Shown here one piece after another: positions 1,812 through 34,520 of a stretch of 40,286 nt of DNA (position 1 is the first letter of the stretch; every line of letters starts with the position of its first letter). Both the position numbers and the translations under genes were made by a program. Below the pieces are notes generated by a model, which saw only the letters and a program-made list of their open reading frames with translations, was not told the DNA's origin and searched no databases. Source of the stretch: Nanobdellota archaeon (lineage in GTDB: Archaea > Nanobdellota > Nanobdellia > Pacearchaeales > GW2011-AR1); contig JAUSIC010000023.1 of assembly GCA_030648285.1 (NCBI GenBank), positions 1 through 40,286 of the forward strand, in the 5' to 3' direction.

Positions 1812-2063
1812 TTATTTAATTTCACGGAATTCGTTTAAGTATTCTAAAGGTACATCTGCTAAGAATCCTCTTTCTCCTTCTCCAAATGGTCCAGTAACAA
1901 ATAAAGTGCCCCTTTCAGGGATAACTTTTAAGATATAATCTTCAGTATGAGATAAAGTAGGATGTAAATTTCCAACGTATATAAATTTTTTTTGACTTAA
2001 AGATTCATTTATTAAATCAATAGCTACCTTTCCTAATTCACTTGTTGTATGTTTATTGCTCAT
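1812..2063 (-). CDS. Uncharacterised 83 aa protein between rps4 and rps13
   Basis: Compact ORF tightly packed between ribosomal protein genes, no family recognised. Confidence 0.7.
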   Translation of the reverse strand: MSNKHTTSELGKVAIDLINESLSQKKFIYVGNLHPTLSHTEDYILKVIPERGTLFVTGPFGEGERGFLADVPLEYLNEFREIK

Positions 2064-2575
2064 TTTTTACCCTTTCCTGTATATTGTGGTGGTGCTTCTC
2101 TCTTCACAACTTTCTTTTTAATTCCAGAACCCTTCTTCTTGTTCTTTCTGAAATGGCTTCTTGTTCTTTGTCCTCTCACAGGCAATCCAGCAACATGTCT
2201 TATTCCTTTGTAACTCTTTATTTTCTTTAATCTCTTTATATCTAAATCTTTTTGCAATTCTAAATCTGTTCCAACCAAATGCCTGTCATCTCCTGTTTCA
2301 AAATCTTTTCTTCTGTTAAAAATAAAGATTGGTAAAGTTGGTTTTTTCAAGAATTCAGATACTCTTTTGATTTCTTCTTCTGTCAAAGAACCAATTTTTC
2401 TGTTCTTGTCAATATTAAGTTTTTTGCAAGCTGCATTTGAAATTCCCCATGAAACTCCTTTTATTTTTGCCAATCCAGGATAAACTTTCATTTTTCCTTC
2501 TATGTCTTTTGATAAAATTCTTACTATTCTTTCTTCATGTCCTTCTTTCATCTTTGTTATGTTCTTTTGTTCCAT
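2060..2575 (-). CDS. rps13: 30S ribosomal protein S13 (start MEQKNITKM..., not the longer 2707 ORF start)
   Basis: VRILSKDIEGKMKVYPGLAKIKGVSWGISNAACKKLNID...YKGIRHVAGLPVRGQRTRSHFRKNKKKGSG; AAGGAG Shine-Dalgarno upstream of the 2575 ATG. Confidence 0.93.
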   Translation of the reverse strand: MEQKNITKMKEGHEERIVRILSKDIEGKMKVYPGLAKIKGVSWGISNAACKKLNIDKNRKIGSLTEEEIKRVSEFLKKPTLPIFIFNRRKDFETGDDRHLVGTDLELQKDLDIKRLKKIKSYKGIRHVAGLPVRGQRTRSHFRKNKKKGSGIKKKVVKREAPPQYTGKGKK

Positions 2576-2667
2576 TAATATCTCCTTATCGATTTTGTAT
2601 TTTCCATTATGCAAAATACTTCCATGTCGATTTTGTATATGTGCTGAAAATTTCTTATTTCTGTCAT
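2575..2667 (-). promoter_or_regulatory. Leader/coupling element copy A upstream of rps13 (u[33 protein letters not shown])
   Basis: Minus-strand ATGACAGAAATAAGAAATTTTCAGCACATATACAAAATCGACATGGAAGTATTTTGCATAATGG... plus a partial second copy of the 3' half; stop TAA overlaps rps13 ATG. Confidence 0.8.
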
Positions 2668-2675
2668 TTTTAAAT

Positions 2676-3212
2676 TTAATGTACAAACAGGTTGTACCTC
2701 TCAACATTTGTCAGTTCTTCAATTATCCTTTTTTCAACTGCTTTTTCAGGATCAGGAAGATTTTGTATTCTTTCTTTCATTTCTTCAAAGTTCTCAAAGG
2801 GCTTTACTTCCCTTTGCTTCAAGATATCATTCATATGCTTTTTTCCAAATCCAGGAAGAAGTTCTATCTGGTGAACTCTCTTGTTTATTGCTTCTGCTTT
2901 GTTGAAAAATTCGATGAATTCTTTTTCTCTTTCTTTGACTGTTTTCTTGATGAATTCTTGTAATTGATTCTTTGCAGACTCTGTAAGTTTTTCTCTCTTT
3001 AATCTTCCAAGAATGTAATATACCTTATCTCTTTTCCCTTCTCCGATGTAAACATCTTCTCCTATCGTTAAAGCTACTCCACGTCTTGGAACTAATTCTA
3101 AAAGAGTTAAATTTGTCTTACCAATTGCCTGTGCTATAGGCATCATTTTTCCTTCTAGAGGATATCCATTTGGTAAATATTCTAGGACTATTGCATATTC
3201 TTCTTTTTCCAT
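2676..3212 (-). CDS. DUF655 (COG1491-like) putative RNA-binding protein
   Basis: EYLPNGYP...AQAIGKTNLTLLELVPRRGVALTIGEDVYIG...LLPGFGKKHMNDIL helix-hairpin-helix; typical archaeal neighbour of rpoF. Confidence 0.85.
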   Translation of the reverse strand: MEKEEYAIVLEYLPNGYPLEGKMMPIAQAIGKTNLTLLELVPRRGVALTIGEDVYIGEGKRDKVYYILGRLKREKLTESAKNQLQEFIKKTVKEREKEFIEFFNKAEAINKRVHQIELLPGFGKKHMNDILKQREVKPFENFEEMKERIQNLPDPEKAVEKRIIEELTNVERYNLFVH

Positions 3213-5293: not shown

Positions 5294-6163
5294 TTACTGT
5301 CCGTTCCGTTTATTTCTGTTCTTCTTTCTAATTCTTCTGTAAACTAAGAATATAATTATAACTCCGACAATAGAAATAATTATTAAAAAAGTATTATTTT
5401 TGTTTATCAATCCTAAACCAATTGCTTCTTTCTGAGTGTAAGTTTTTATCAAGATATTTTCTTCTTTTGTTATTTGATTATTTCTAGAATCTGAATAAGT
5501 TAGTTGAATTGGCAGGCTTATAGAAGATGGAGAATCCGCCTTTACAAAAACACTGAAATCAGCACTATCAAAATCATTGCTGTCTATATTTCCAATATAA
5601 ATTTTATTTGAACCTGTTGCCTGTATTCCATTAATAGCACTTAAGCCAACGCTCAAAAATTTAGCATCTCCCAATCCAGAATTAACAATTTTTACTGTGA
5701 CTTTTCCGCTTGTCCCTTTAACTAAAACACTTCCTTCATAAGAAACTTCAATATTTGGTTTTGCGTTTATTATAACACCCACAACTTTTTCTTCTGGTGT
5801 AGCATGTGTTCCATTAGCATGATCATAATTAATTGTAACAGGGATTGTGTAAGTTCCAGAAATAGCATCAGAAGAAGCAATCAAATCAAAATTTGCTTTT
5901 TCATTGTCATCTCCGTTGATATTGTCTATTCTGACTTCATTTGAAGATTGATAAGGTGCAAAAAAAGTTTCGCTTAAATCTAAGCTTATAACAACATCTT
6001 TTACTTCTTCATTTAAGTTATTCTCTATTTTCAGATTAAGACTAAATTTTTCTCCTGGTTGAACCTCTTGAGGATTGCTAATCACAGAATCAATTGTCAG
6101 AGCAGAAGTCAAGCATATTTGTAAGAGAAACAATGCCGCCAAAATTATTAAAATTTTTTTCAT
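5294..6163 (-). CDS. Exported, C-terminally membrane-anchored NEW3/COG1361-like protein
   Basis: Signal peptide, beta-rich repeats (LNLKIENNLNEEVKDVVISLDLS...), C-terminal TM; sits between ABC ATPase and permease genes. Confidence 0.75.
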   Translation of the reverse strand: MKKILIILAALFLLQICLTSALTIDSVISNPQEVQPGEKFSLNLKIENNLNEEVKDVVISLDLSETFFAPYQSSNEVRIDNINGDDNEKANFDLIASSDAISGTYTIPVTINYDHANGTHATPEEKVVGVIINAKPNIEVSYEGSVLVKGTSGKVTVKIVNSGLGDAKFLSVGLSAINGIQATGSNKIYIGNIDSNDFDSADFSVFVKADSPSSISLPIQLTYSDSRNNQITKEENILIKTYTQKEAIGLGLINKNNTFLIIISIVGVIIIFLVYRRIRKKNRNKRNGQ

Positions 6164-6219
6164 TATGCAAAATACCTCCCTGCCAATTTTGTATTTGTGC
6201 TGAACGTTAGTTCTGTCAT
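6163..6219 (-). promoter_or_regulatory. Leader/coupling element copy B (uORF MTELTFSTNTKLAGRYFA*)
   Basis: Minus-strand ATGACAGAACTAACGTTCAGCACAAATACAAAATTGGCAGGGAGGTATTTTGCATAATG; ATGA overlap with the upstream ATPase stop and TAATG overlap with the downstream start. Confidence 0.85.
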
Positions 6220-10030: not shown

Positions 10031-10164
10031 GCGCTGATAGTTCAGTGGTAGAATGTCTGCCTTCCAACAAGAAGAACCATATGGTTCTTCCTTGGACCAT
10101 CTCCTTTCAAAGGGAATAATCCGGAAGACAGCAGACGACTCGGGTTCGAATCCCGATCGGCGCA
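10031..10164 (+). tRNA. tRNA-Gly(UCC) with a ~63 nt intron near 37/38
   Basis: Acceptor GCGCTGA/TCGGCGC, anticodon stem TCTGC/GCAGA, loop CTTCCA..A, BHB-like CTTCC/GGAAG plus ACA bulge, T-arm TCGGGTTCGAATCCCGA. Confidence 0.92.
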
Positions 10165-10170
10165 TACAAA

Positions 10171-10221
10171 ATGAGCAAACAGGAAATTTGCCACAAACAT
10201 AAAATAGGAAATTTTACATAA
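10171..10221 (+). promoter_or_regulatory. Leader/coupling element copy C upstream of secF (uORF MSKQEICHKHKIGNFT*)
   Basis: ATGAGCAAACAGGAAATTTGCCACAAACATAAAATAGGAAATTTTACATAATG; stop overlaps secF ATG; begins 6 nt after the tRNA-Gly 3' end. Confidence 0.8.
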
Positions 10222-11135
10222 TGGAAGAAACACAAATTCATCAACCAAAACAGAAATTTTCAGAAAAATTTGGAAAATTTCATGATAAATATTACAAATT
10301 ACTATTAATTATTCCAGTAATTCTTTTCCTTATTGGTTTTATTTACATGTTCAGTTTTTATCAAAAAAACAATGACTACATATATAGAGATATTTCTTTA
10401 ACAGGAGGAACTTCTGTCACAATAAACAGAGCAATAGATATGAATGATTTATCAAATGCAATTTCTGATAAGCTTGAAAATGTAAATCTTCGCGAGATTT
10501 CTGATTTAGTGACTAAAAAGCAAATAGCAGTTATTGTAGAAACAAAAAGTGATGCCGAACTCACTCGTTCTGTTTTAGAGGAATATCTTGGTTATCAATT
10601 AGATGGAGAAAATAGCAGCTTTGAATTCACAGGTTCAACTCTGAGTGGAAGTTTCTACAGACAGCTTTTGATTGCAGTCTTAATAGCTTTTGTTTTAATG
10701 GCAATAGTTGTCTTTATTCAATTTAAATCATTTATTCCTTCTCTTGCAGTAATTACCAGTGCATTTGCAGATATCTTCATGACTCTTGTTGTTGCTAACA
10801 TGATTGGATTACAAATTTCAACAGCAGGAATAGTCGCATTCCTCATGCTGATTGGTTATAGTGTTGATACAGATATTCTCTTGACTACAAAAGTTATCAA
10901 AAGAGATGAAGGAAGTTTGAATAAGAGAATCTTTGATTCATTCAAAACAGGAATAACAATGACTTTAACTTCTTTGGTTGCGGTTATCATTGCACTGATA
11001 ATTGTCGGGAGATTTTCTTCAATTCTTTCTCAAATTTTTACAATAATGGCTATCGGTTTGGGTTTTGATATCTTTAATACATGGGTGACAAATGTTTCAA
11101 TAATTAAATGGTATGCTAAAAAACATAAAAAATGA
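10221..11135 (+). CDS. secF: Protein-export membrane protein SecF
   Basis: DISLTGGTSVTI..., LLIAVLIAFVLMAIVVFIQFKSFIPSLAVI..., LMLIGYSVDTDILLTTKVIKR. Confidence 0.93.
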   Translation: MEETQIHQPKQKFSEKFGKFHDKYYKLLLIIPVILFLIGFIYMFSFYQKNNDYIYRDISLTGGTSVTINRAIDMNDLSNAISDKLENVNLREISDLVTKKQIAVIVETKSDAELTRSVLEEYLGYQLDGENSSFEFTGSTLSGSFYRQLLIAVLIAFVLMAIVVFIQFKSFIPSLAVITSAFADIFMTLVVANMIGLQISTAGIVAFLMLIGYSVDTDILLTTKVIKRDEGSLNKRIFDSFKTGITMTLTSLVAVIIALIIVGRFSSILSQIFTIMAIGLGFDIFNTWVTNVSIIKWYAKKHKK

Positions 11136-11188
11136 GCAAACAAGAAATTTGCCACAAATACAAAATTGATTGGGGGTATTTTGCATAA
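11132..11188 (+). promoter_or_regulatory. Leader/coupling element copy D upstream of secD (uORF MSKQEICHKYKIDWGYFA*)
   Basis: ATGAGCAAACAAGAAATTTGCCACAAATACAAAATTGATTGGGGGTATTTTGCATAATG; ATGA overlap with secF stop and TAATG overlap with secD start. Confidence 0.85.
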
Positions 11189-12753
11189 TGAATCTTAAAT
11201 TGACTTGGAAAATTTGGTTGTGGCTAGCTGTTTTATTGTTTGCTATAATTTCTCTCGTTAATTTTCCATATCTTTTTCAAAAAGGAGTTTTAATAACGAG
11301 TGTAGAACAAAACTCTACTGCATTCGAGCAAGGATTAAGAACAATAGATAATGGAAAATCTATGGTTATTACGGCGATTGATGGAAAGAAAATAGAAAAT
11401 GTAAATGATTTCTCAAAAATAATCAGTGAAAAATTTCCTTCGAATGAAAATGTAAAAACAGCTTTCATTGTAAATGGGAAAGAATACATCTTATATTCAA
11501 AAAATGCTCCAGAAATAACTGTTTCAGAGATTAAGAAAACAAATTTAAGGACAGGTTTGGATTTGTCAGGAGGAGCAAGAGCATTAGTTCAGGCAAAAGA
11601 TGAAAAATTAACCCCTGAACAAGTTAGCGATTTGGTGAGTGTCATCAGCAACAGATTCAATGTTTATGGAATTTCCGATATAAATGTAAAACCTGTTACT
11701 GATTTATCGGGAAATAATTTTATTCTGATTGAAATTGCAGGAGCAACTCCTAGAGACTTACAAGGATTAATTTCAGAACAAGGAAAATTCGAAGCAAAGA
11801 TAGGAAATGAAACTGTTTTCATAGGAGGTATGGGTGGAGAAAAAGATGTTACTTCTGTTGGAAAAACAGCACAAGAAGCAAGAATAGAATCTTGTAATCC
11901 TTCTCAAGAAGATTATTTTTGTAAATTCAGTTTTTCAGTTTTTCTCAGTGAACAAGCAGCAGAGCGTTTTGCAGAGGCGACTAAAGATTTGGAAGTCAAT
12001 GCATCTTCAACAGGAAATTTTTTATCCAAAAGTATTGATTTTTATATTGATGACAACCTTGTTGATAGTTTGACAATTGCAGAAAGTCTTAAAGGCCAAG
12101 TAACAACACAAGTTTCAATTTCAGGTACAGGATTAGGAAAAACAGAAAAAGAGGCATATGACTCTGCAATAGAAAATATGAAGCACCTACAAACAATTCT
12201 TCAAACAGGAAGTCTTCCTTTCAAGCTTGAAATCGTTAAATTAGATACTATTTCTCCAACTCTTGGAGAAAAATTTAGCAGATATATTTTTATTGCAGCC
12301 TTTGCAGCTCTTTTTTCAGTTGTAGTAATTATTTTCATAAAATATAGAAAATTAAAGTTAGCAATTCCTCCATTGATTATTGCCGCATCAGAAATAATAA
12401 TTACTCTGGGAGTTGCCGCATTTATGAAGCAGGATTTAGATCTTCCCGGTATTGCAGGGATTTTGGCTGCAATTGGTACAGGAATTGATGACCAGATAGT
12501 TATGCTTGATGAAACAAAAAGAAAAGGAGAAACCTTGAGCATAAAACAAAGAATCAAGAGAGCATTTGGAATAGTATTAGGAGCATACTTCACAGCCTTT
12601 GTTTCACTATTACCCTTATTATGGGCTGGTGCAGGATTATTGAAAGGATTTGCAATCATGACCTTAATAGGAATTACTTTTGGGGTTTTAGTCACACGTC
12701 CTGCATTTGCAGACATCATAAGAAAAATAGAGGAAAAAAATGCTTCCGCATGA
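11188..12753 (+). CDS. secD: Protein-export membrane protein SecD (start MNLKLTW)
   Basis: RTGLDLSGGARALVQ..., VSNRFNVYGISDINVKPV, LPGIAGILAAIGTGIDDQIVMLDE. Confidence 0.93.
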   Translation: MNLKLTWKIWLWLAVLLFAIISLVNFPYLFQKGVLITSVEQNSTAFEQGLRTIDNGKSMVITAIDGKKIENVNDFSKIISEKFPSNENVKTAFIVNGKEYILYSKNAPEITVSEIKKTNLRTGLDLSGGARALVQAKDEKLTPEQVSDLVSVISNRFNVYGISDINVKPVTDLSGNNFILIEIAGATPRDLQGLISEQGKFEAKIGNETVFIGGMGGEKDVTSVGKTAQEARIESCNPSQEDYFCKFSFSVFLSEQAAERFAEATKDLEVNASSTGNFLSKSIDFYIDDNLVDSLTIAESLKGQVTTQVSISGTGLGKTEKEAYDSAIENMKHLQTILQTGSLPFKLEIVKLDTISPTLGEKFSRYIFIAAFAALFSVVVIIFIKYRKLKLAIPPLIIAASEIIITLGVAAFMKQDLDLPGIAGILAAIGTGIDDQIVMLDETKRKGETLSIKQRIKRAFGIVLGAYFTAFVSLLPLLWAGAGLLKGFAIMTLIGITFGVLVTRPAFADIIRKIEEKNASA

Positions 12754-33708: not shown

Positions 33709-34461
33709 TTATATTCTTCCCACTAAAATCATATTCCAATGCTTTTCTGTTAATTCTTCACCAAATTCATAAGAAGGGCATAAATGAATTAATTCAAATT
33801 CTTCGTCATTCATGTATTTTTCTAATTCTTTTGGAAAGAAGAATCTGACTTTGTGTATTTCTTCATATTTTTTTATCAAATTATCATTTTTAAAAATTTC
33901 AACCTCAAATTTCACATTATTTATATGATTTTTTACATCTAAATCAGGAAAGCTTCTCCTTACAATTTTTAATCCCTTAACTTCAACAATTTTCTCTCTG
34001 CTTGTTGGCAACTCATGCATTACCCCCAAACCATTCCAGCAATCAATAATTAGCAGTCCATTTGGATTTAGATGCCTTTTAACACATTTGAAGAAATTTT
34101 CAATTTGTTTGTTCTCTGTTAAATATCCTATTGCTGAAAACATGCAGATGATAGAATCAAATTTCTCATTCAATTCAAAATTGGACATGTCTCCTACAAC
34201 AAACTTAACATTCGGAGTTTTCTCTTTTGCTATTTCTATCATATCTGGCGATAAATCCAAGCCAGTCATCTCATAGATTCTATCAGAAAGCTCTTTTTCA
34301 TGAAGTCCTGTTCCGCATCCCAAATCAAGAACTTTTTTATTTTTTAAGTTAAATTTTTTAAATACTTGTTCTAAAAAATCAATCTCTTTTTTGTAATCTT
34401 TATTCTTGTTGAATAAGTCATAATATCTTGCATAACTTCCCTCAAATTTTTTATCTTCCAT
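33709..34461 (-). CDS. Class I SAM-dependent methyltransferase (start MEDKKFEG at 34461)
   Basis: [39 protein letters not shown]...[13 protein letters not shown]. Confidence 0.9.
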
Positions 34462-34520
34462 TATGCAAAATACCTCCATGTCGATTTTGTATTTGTGGAA
34501 AATTTCTTATTTTCTGTCAT
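34461..34520 (-). promoter_or_regulatory. Leader/coupling element copy E (uORF MTENKKFSTNTKSTWRYFA*)
   Basis: Minus-strand ATGACAGAAAATAAGAAATTTTCCACAAATACAAAATCGACATGGAGGTATTTTGCATAATG; TAATG overlaps at both ends. Confidence 0.85.

Follow-up and report, generated by a model that had tools for sequence, protein, structure and literature searches.

Introduction

Rickettsia palindromic elements (RPEs) are small elements dispersed in unrelated housekeeping genes (Ogata et al. 2000, reviewed in PMC10969869). They are compatible with coding, occur in many copies and keep an open reading frame (ORF) through the element, which becomes an internal part of the host protein. MITEs and REP-type elements of prokaryotes are short, apparently non-autonomous, hairpin-forming and multicopy, and they vary between species (PMC10969869, PMC3733652). 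The Start Associated Sequences (SAS/ESAS) of Cluster K mycobacteriophages are 13-bp repeats with an AGGAG core, located upstream of many start codons in one orientation and associated with an inverted repeat in about half of the cases (PMC3203893); the SAS consensus, GGGATAGGAGCCC, lies in the leader, which has no translated unit. Short translated ORFs that hand ribosomes on are known from integron attI1, where ORF-11 boosts cassette translation by coupling and has a peptide sequence that is largely unimportant (ORF-11/ORF-17; PMC8876359), and from synthetic nfORF boosters, in which an upstream nonsense ORF with a strong internal ribosome binding site by its stop increases translation in E. 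coli by as much as 20-fold (PMC13255528).

The cassette described here shares a part of its properties with each of MITEs, REPs, RPEs, SAS and integron ORF-11, and the whole set with none of them. Like RPEs, it keeps an open frame through many copies; in contrast to them, it is located after the start codon and has a peptide of its own, so that the host protein stays as it was. It resembles MITEs and REP-type elements in the features listed above, but it lacks clear terminal inverted repeats, has no partner transposase that we could find, targets the start codon and keeps its frame. As in SAS/ESAS, a repeat with a Shine-Dalgarno (SD) sequence adjoins many start codons in one orientation; the cassette sequence is different, however, and includes an open mini-ORF ending in TAATG, whereas no mini-ORF, new start codon or filled and empty insertion sites behind an ATG have been described for the phage repeats. 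ORF-11/ORF-17 and nfORFs occupy one fixed or engineered site and are not dispersed behind start codons. The cassette has the overlapping stop and start of gene pairs coupled by termination-reinitiation. Mobile translational bypassing elements (byps) of yeast mitochondria are hairpin elements that are also neutralised at translation, being skipped by the ribosome inside genes, whereas the cassette is, in our proposal, translated and followed by re-initiation. The preliminary description of the locus did not recognise a described family and, consistently, we found none with these properties in open-access full texts, although an earlier description may exist elsewhere.

Results

Five copies in the window belong to a genome-wide repeat

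The window (the whole stretch of DNA analysed, 40,286 nt, 31% GC) comes from the genome of a Nanobdellota archaeon, hereafter the source genome, an assembly of 0.62 Mb in 25 contigs with archaeal genes. This genome was covered by pattern and profile searches, and by reading stretches of about 365 kb plus individual loci. The preliminary description reported five sites in the window, A to E, each an open mini-ORF whose TAA overlaps the next ATG. All five exist as described (Table 1), and the mini-ORF ATGs of B, D and E do overlap the upstream stop, with stop-to-ATG distances of -4, -4 and -1. Two copies were more complex than reported: A is not single but a head-to-tail pair made up of a newer element and an older remnant, and C is present with a shortened right arm and without GGAGGT. 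The set itself is real, but since long versions (77-203 nt) exist, A to E are short members of a length-variable family.

Table 1. Cassette copies and the genes that they precede in the window
Feature	Position	Strand	Remarks
Copy A, newer element	2605..2667	-	behind start codon, ahead of older remnant; in-frame reading into remnant
Copy A, older degraded element	2576..2607	-	ATG-GAAAATACAAAATCGATAAGGAGATATTA-(ATG of S13); profile match 2577-2602
Ribosomal protein S13 gene	2060..2575	-	starts at copy A end; PF00416, 2.5e-36
Copy B	6161..6219	-	mini-ORF MTELTFSTNTKLAGRYFA, stop; SD-like GGGAGGT; precedes CARDB-domain protein gene
CARDB-domain protein gene	5294..6163	-	starts at copy B end; PF07705, 1.5e-6
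Copy C	10171..10223	+	ATG, element, ATG; mini-ORF 10171-10221 (MSKQEICHKHKIGNFT, stop); precedes SecD/SecF-family gene
SecD/SecF-family gene, 304 aa	10221..11135	+	starts at copy C end; PF02355, 1.4e-27
Copy D	11132..11190	+	mini-ORF 11132-11188 (MSKQEICHKYKIDWGYFA, stop); ATG overlaps upstream stop (ATGA)
Copy D hairpins		+	left 11136-11152; right stem 11161-11166 / 11178-11183; SD-like GGGGG 11172-11176
SecD/SecF-family gene, 521 aa	11188..12753	+	starts at copy D end; PF02355, 1.7e-20
Copy E	34459..34520	-	mini-ORF MTENKKFSTNTKSTWRYFA, stop; SD-like GGAGGT; ATG overlaps upstream stop (TAATG)
Methyltransferase gene	33709..34461	-	starts at copy E end; PF13649, 4.1e-22

Upstream of S13 the frame stays open through copy A (2060-2707, minus strand), and gene-calling software would extend the protein by 44 residues. 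A tRNA gene match at 10031-10164 (plus strand) ends 6 nt ahead of copy C; given its length of 134 nt, this tRNA probably contains an intron.

The window contains 7 matches to the core CACAAATACAAAAT (up to two mismatches allowed), where 1.9 are expected and 100 shuffles gave at most 6. Across the source genome, the pattern search proposed in the preliminary description gave 17 matches and none with the reversed control; a looser right end (RGGTWTTTTGCATAATG) gave 30, again with 0 for the reversed pattern; and a sequence-only profile, built from 21 short copies, identified about 48 copies (double hits merged, manual count). These counts put the repeat far above chance, and the five copies in the window belong to a set of about 48, so that the observation is larger in extent than first reported. 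The outcomes that had been named as contrary to it (no further copies, copies scattered inside genes, loss of the open frame and the TAATG overlap) were found neither in the source genome nor in its relatives. The picture of a dispersed element at gene starts, with core, open frame and TAATG overlap kept, thus extends to many further copies and other genomes.

Anatomy of the cassette

The element begins with ATGACAGAAA and ends with TTTTGCATAATG. Its parts follow in the order ATG, a first hairpin (e.g., GAAAT-AGGAA-ATTTC, GCAAA-CAGGAAA-TTTGC or GAAC-TAAC-GTTC), the core CACAAATA, a second stem (CAAAAY...RTTTTG) whose loop holds a Shine-Dalgarno-like GGAG or GGAGGT, and CATAATG, in which TAA is the stop of the mini-ORF and ATG the start of the host gene. 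The gap from SD to ATG is rather long, about 9-10 nt. Lengths range from about 26 to 203 nt across genomes: short copies in the source genome measure 50-60 nt and the longer ones (77-203 nt) carry extra hairpin-rich stretches; relatives have a tighter form of 44-56 nt, e.g. ATGACAGAAAATAAATTTTCAGCACAAATACAAAACAGGAGTTTTGCATAATG; and tandem units in one relative, G112, go down to 26 nt (ATG-ATAAAAAACAGGAGTTTTTCATA-ATG).

Both hairpins show compensatory pairs: GAAAAT/ATTTTC, GAAC/GTTC, GAGC/GCTC and GCAAAT/ATTTGC on the left, and CAAAAC/GTTTTG and CAAAAT/ATTTTG on the right. Covariation across genera at left pairs 2, 4, 5 and 6 and right pair 5 exceeded nearly all of 2000 partner-letter shuffles, a comparison that ignores kinship, and right pair 5 also covaried in a second test, with three pair types. 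The set included one hand-shortened form of a long copy (L051), which contributes no new hairpin. Single-sequence folding gave a weak signal (mean z of -1.45 for the left and -0.3 for the right hairpin), and it is covariation between genomes that carries the case for the hairpins. Both stems belong to internal hairpins: we found no classical terminal inverted repeats, just ATG/CAT and an imperfect complementarity of the ends. An Rfam search of the window matched 5S rRNA and two tRNAs only, and no cis-regulatory family.

The cassette is inserted behind start codons

Four comparisons between filled and empty sites within a genus, at the genes for ribosomal proteins L13, L4 and S3 (twice), revealed that the cassette had been inserted cleanly after the start codon, ahead of codon 2. 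At L13 (filled in G119, empty in G069) the flanks are 76% identical and interrupted by a single 50-nt gap at AATAAA|ATG. The L4 site is filled in G131 and empty in G101, as well as in the other eight genomes examined, from which we infer that the filled state is derived. The S3 gene is filled in G120 and empty in G071, and likewise filled in G119 and empty in G069. Filled sites read ATG, then the cassette ending in TA, then ATG. In these alignments the left border, which is the ATG of the mini-ORF, was originally the start codon of the downstream gene.

The surroundings of further copies are consistent with this. In 20 relatives the L13 and S9 genes overlap or are usually a few bases apart, with a stop-to-start distance of -4 in most; in the source genome the junction has +5, then the element, then the ATG of S9, whose N-terminus is unchanged relative to those of the relatives. 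The mini-ORF ATGs generally sit at distances from the upstream stop that are typical of gene starts in operons: -4, -1 and +1 to +5 in most copies. The cassette had been viewed as a linker placed in operon junctions. Its location at gene starts stands, but the filled and empty sites indicate that it is inserted behind the gene's own ATG and takes over the role of that codon. It had also been called mobile or recombining, which the differences between species support; mobility is seen in that form only. An ATG at both borders is expected equally from a 3-nt target duplication and from a target that is recognised and rebuilt.

Insertion inside proteins, as in RPEs, is not what we observed: translation of the downstream protein begins with the new ATG. 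One copy in G112 (L221) is instead an in-frame N-terminal fusion. Copies stacked head to tail build up at one and the same ATG and are mostly open to the last TAATG. At L254-L259 and L192, also in G112, two to three minimal hairpin units are arrayed at one start codon, mostly open in this way. In two species of one genus (G134 and G016; L226, L227), a different insert ahead of S3 has an 11-nt repeat, ATGGAYGAAAG, on either side, resembling a longer target duplication.

Targets of the cassette

Each of the 35 copies tabulated in the source genome has an ATG at its left border and the ATG of a gene at its right border. The downstream genes are mixed and mostly housekeeping, including those for SecD/SecF, S13, S9, S3, S4e, S27ae, RNase Z, proteasome alpha, Sec61 beta, RpoL and a methyltransferase, among others (genes that we take to encode S3ae, S27ae, RpoL, Sec61 beta and proteasome alpha were named by reading their sequences). 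That these genes are unrelated argues against a regulon, and the suggestion of a regulated re-initiation found no support. Among 41 target genes in relatives, 8 have a homologue that is also a target in the source genome, against roughly 2-3 expected by our own estimate. The genes for S3, L10e, RpoL, Sec61 beta, proteasome alpha and S4e carry the element in more than one genus, sometimes as different subtypes.

In a 365-kb sample of the source genome we counted 456 predicted genes; on the two strands together, 1352 ATGs fell entirely within non-coding DNA. Random entry at any tolerated ATG would place about 25% of copies at gene starts; nearly all intact copies are there, and two decayed copies (L241, L245) lie elsewhere. 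The bias may reflect either an insertion preference, the loss of copies elsewhere, or selection favouring copies at starts. On one contig of G119 (C3, 623 kb), 10 of 10 pattern matches are on the plus strand; the genes of the stretches fetched from it are also mostly on that strand, and the pattern may be due to gene strand bias.

The reading frame is kept, the peptide varies

The mini-ORF is directly open and in frame, with a length of 2 mod 3, in 30 of the 35 tabulated copies, so that translation from the old ATG would end at TAATG. With restored or fused frames included, the frame is open in 34. Of the off-frame copies, three (57, 57 and 162 nt) run into a stop at codon 4, but a new internal ATG reopens the frame as far as TAATG; the newer element of copy A (60 nt) continues in frame into the older remnant, the composite being open; and L051 (118 nt) has the one broken frame. 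Variants differ in length mostly by multiples of three (18, 42, 45, 48, 60, 105), and TAATG is present in nearly all intact copies. Mini-ORFs are about 15-67 codons long; MTEIGNFSTNTK is an example of a predicted peptide. The core had been noticed to be read in different frames, and we observed all three (HKYK, TNTK and AQIQ), which indicates that the peptide is not what is kept; openness and frame are. The long versions had no significant Pfam match that would suggest a functional protein. Apart from these elements, no ATG-to-TAATG mini-ORF recurred at real gene starts in the 365-kb sample.

Distribution and mobilising activity

Within the family, whose members have small genomes, 15 of 113 genomes, in 12 of 87 genera, had profile scores for the cassette, and the ten genomes that we read besides the source genome show its anatomy in full or in part. 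Other GTDB genomes contained six exact matches to the 18-nt right end, without shared context and close to chance (records near the source genome were possibly masked). Viruses as carriers were rejected: the 16-nt right end occurs in 40 IMG/VR stretches that have no context in common, and four specific exact patterns gave one chance match in viral contigs, inside a phage gene.

The presence of the cassette did not correlate with that of candidate mobilising enzymes. Y1_Tnp was found in 5 of the 15 profile-positive genomes and in 35 of the 98 others, and not in the richest carriers (the source genome, G119 and G112, all incomplete assemblies); RVT_1 was found in 2 of 15 and 37 of 98, respectively. 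No full-length copy with a transposase between cassette ends was seen. The source genome does encode a reverse transcriptase (334 aa), as part of a diversity-generating retroelement (L135, contig C16, near 47.8-48.4 kb) in which the template and variable repeats are 85 nt long (2342-2426 and 2676-2760) and the variable protein ends in WFYAGSDRANLNCGRNPHYWYSGLGVRATRHE. We discarded it as the mobiliser, given this role and the lack of association with carriers. The activity that mobilises the element is probably provided in trans.

Discussion

We propose, with a probability of roughly 80%, that these are miniature insertion elements that enter directly behind the ATG of protein genes, in sense orientation, and are transparent to translation through a relay of termination and re-initiation. 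The original start codon would retain its upstream initiation signals and would now start the mini-ORF through the element. Translating ribosomes would open both hairpins, terminate at the TAA and re-initiate at the overlapping ATG of the right end, aided by the GGAG-type Shine-Dalgarno in the loop of the right hairpin. The peptide of the mini-ORF would be a by-product, and some copies may raise translation. Since the host protein is unchanged, an insertion would be nearly neutral, and copies could build up at the start codons of essential genes. Of 14 overlapping stop/start pairs tested in Haloferax volcanii and E. coli, 13 were strictly coupled (PMC6728339).

A transparent relay fits better than a regulated re-initiation. 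A regulatory RNA leader, riboswitch-like or bound by a protein and inherited with the genes of a regulon, would account for the conserved core, the hairpins and the SD in a loop, but it is very improbable considering that the targets form no regulon, that Rfam matches in the window are limited to 5S rRNA and tRNAs, and that the orthologous genes lack the element in most relatives. The cassette could also be a functional translation module, i.e. a translated leader with an internal ribosome binding site that raises expression and was copied by recombination and spread by selection. The boosts by nonsense ORFs in E. coli and by integron ORF-11, the many ribosomal and secretion targets and the excess of targets shared with relatives all speak for such a module; the functional mixture of the targets, the differences in sites between species of one genus, and the tandem arrays and long variants, which resemble a history of insertions and not a design, make it somewhat unlikely.

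Two other possibilities concern how the element moves. Template switching or microhomology-mediated insertion, in which border ATGs and hairpins allow copying without a dedicated enzyme, agrees with the ATG at both borders, with the minimal 26-nt tandem units and with the lack of any association found with Y1 or reverse transcriptase genes. A 3-nt microhomology alone, however, would not single out start codons of unrelated genes, and the long variants share both exact ends, so we regard this as unlikely. A MITE of an IS200/IS605-type (HUH, Y1) transposon, with end hairpins, a single orientation and entry 3' of a short fixed sequence, would explain the two hairpins near the ends, the absence of classical terminal inverted repeats, the insertion 3' of ATG and the strict orientation, and Y1_Tnp genes occur in 40 of 113 genomes of the family. 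Such an origin is nevertheless quite improbable: the cassette showed no association with Y1 presence, the richest carriers yielded no Y1 gene and no genome a full-length transposase copy with these ends, and a Y1 element should enter ATGs other than start codons too.

The cassette appears to belong with miniature mobile elements that are neutralised at the level of gene expression; its combination of start-codon insertion and translated relay appears new. That it represents a categorically new class of mobile DNA, which recognises start codons, inserts behind them and is made harmless by a translated relay, is possible, at somewhat less than even odds. If the choice of target does depend on reading a start codon, insertion itself may be linked to mRNA or to the initiation of translation.

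The filled and empty start sites in orthologous genes constitute dozens of natural experiments on termination-reinitiation, in archaea that are difficult to grow in the laboratory. They also affect the annotation of start sites, as gene callers will take the elements as N-terminal extensions or small genes. More generally, the cassette shows a way for DNA to enter essential, tightly packed operons without breaking them: to bring a start signal and restore the start codon. This would be a further neutralising route, beside self-splicing (introns, inteins) and in-frame tolerance.
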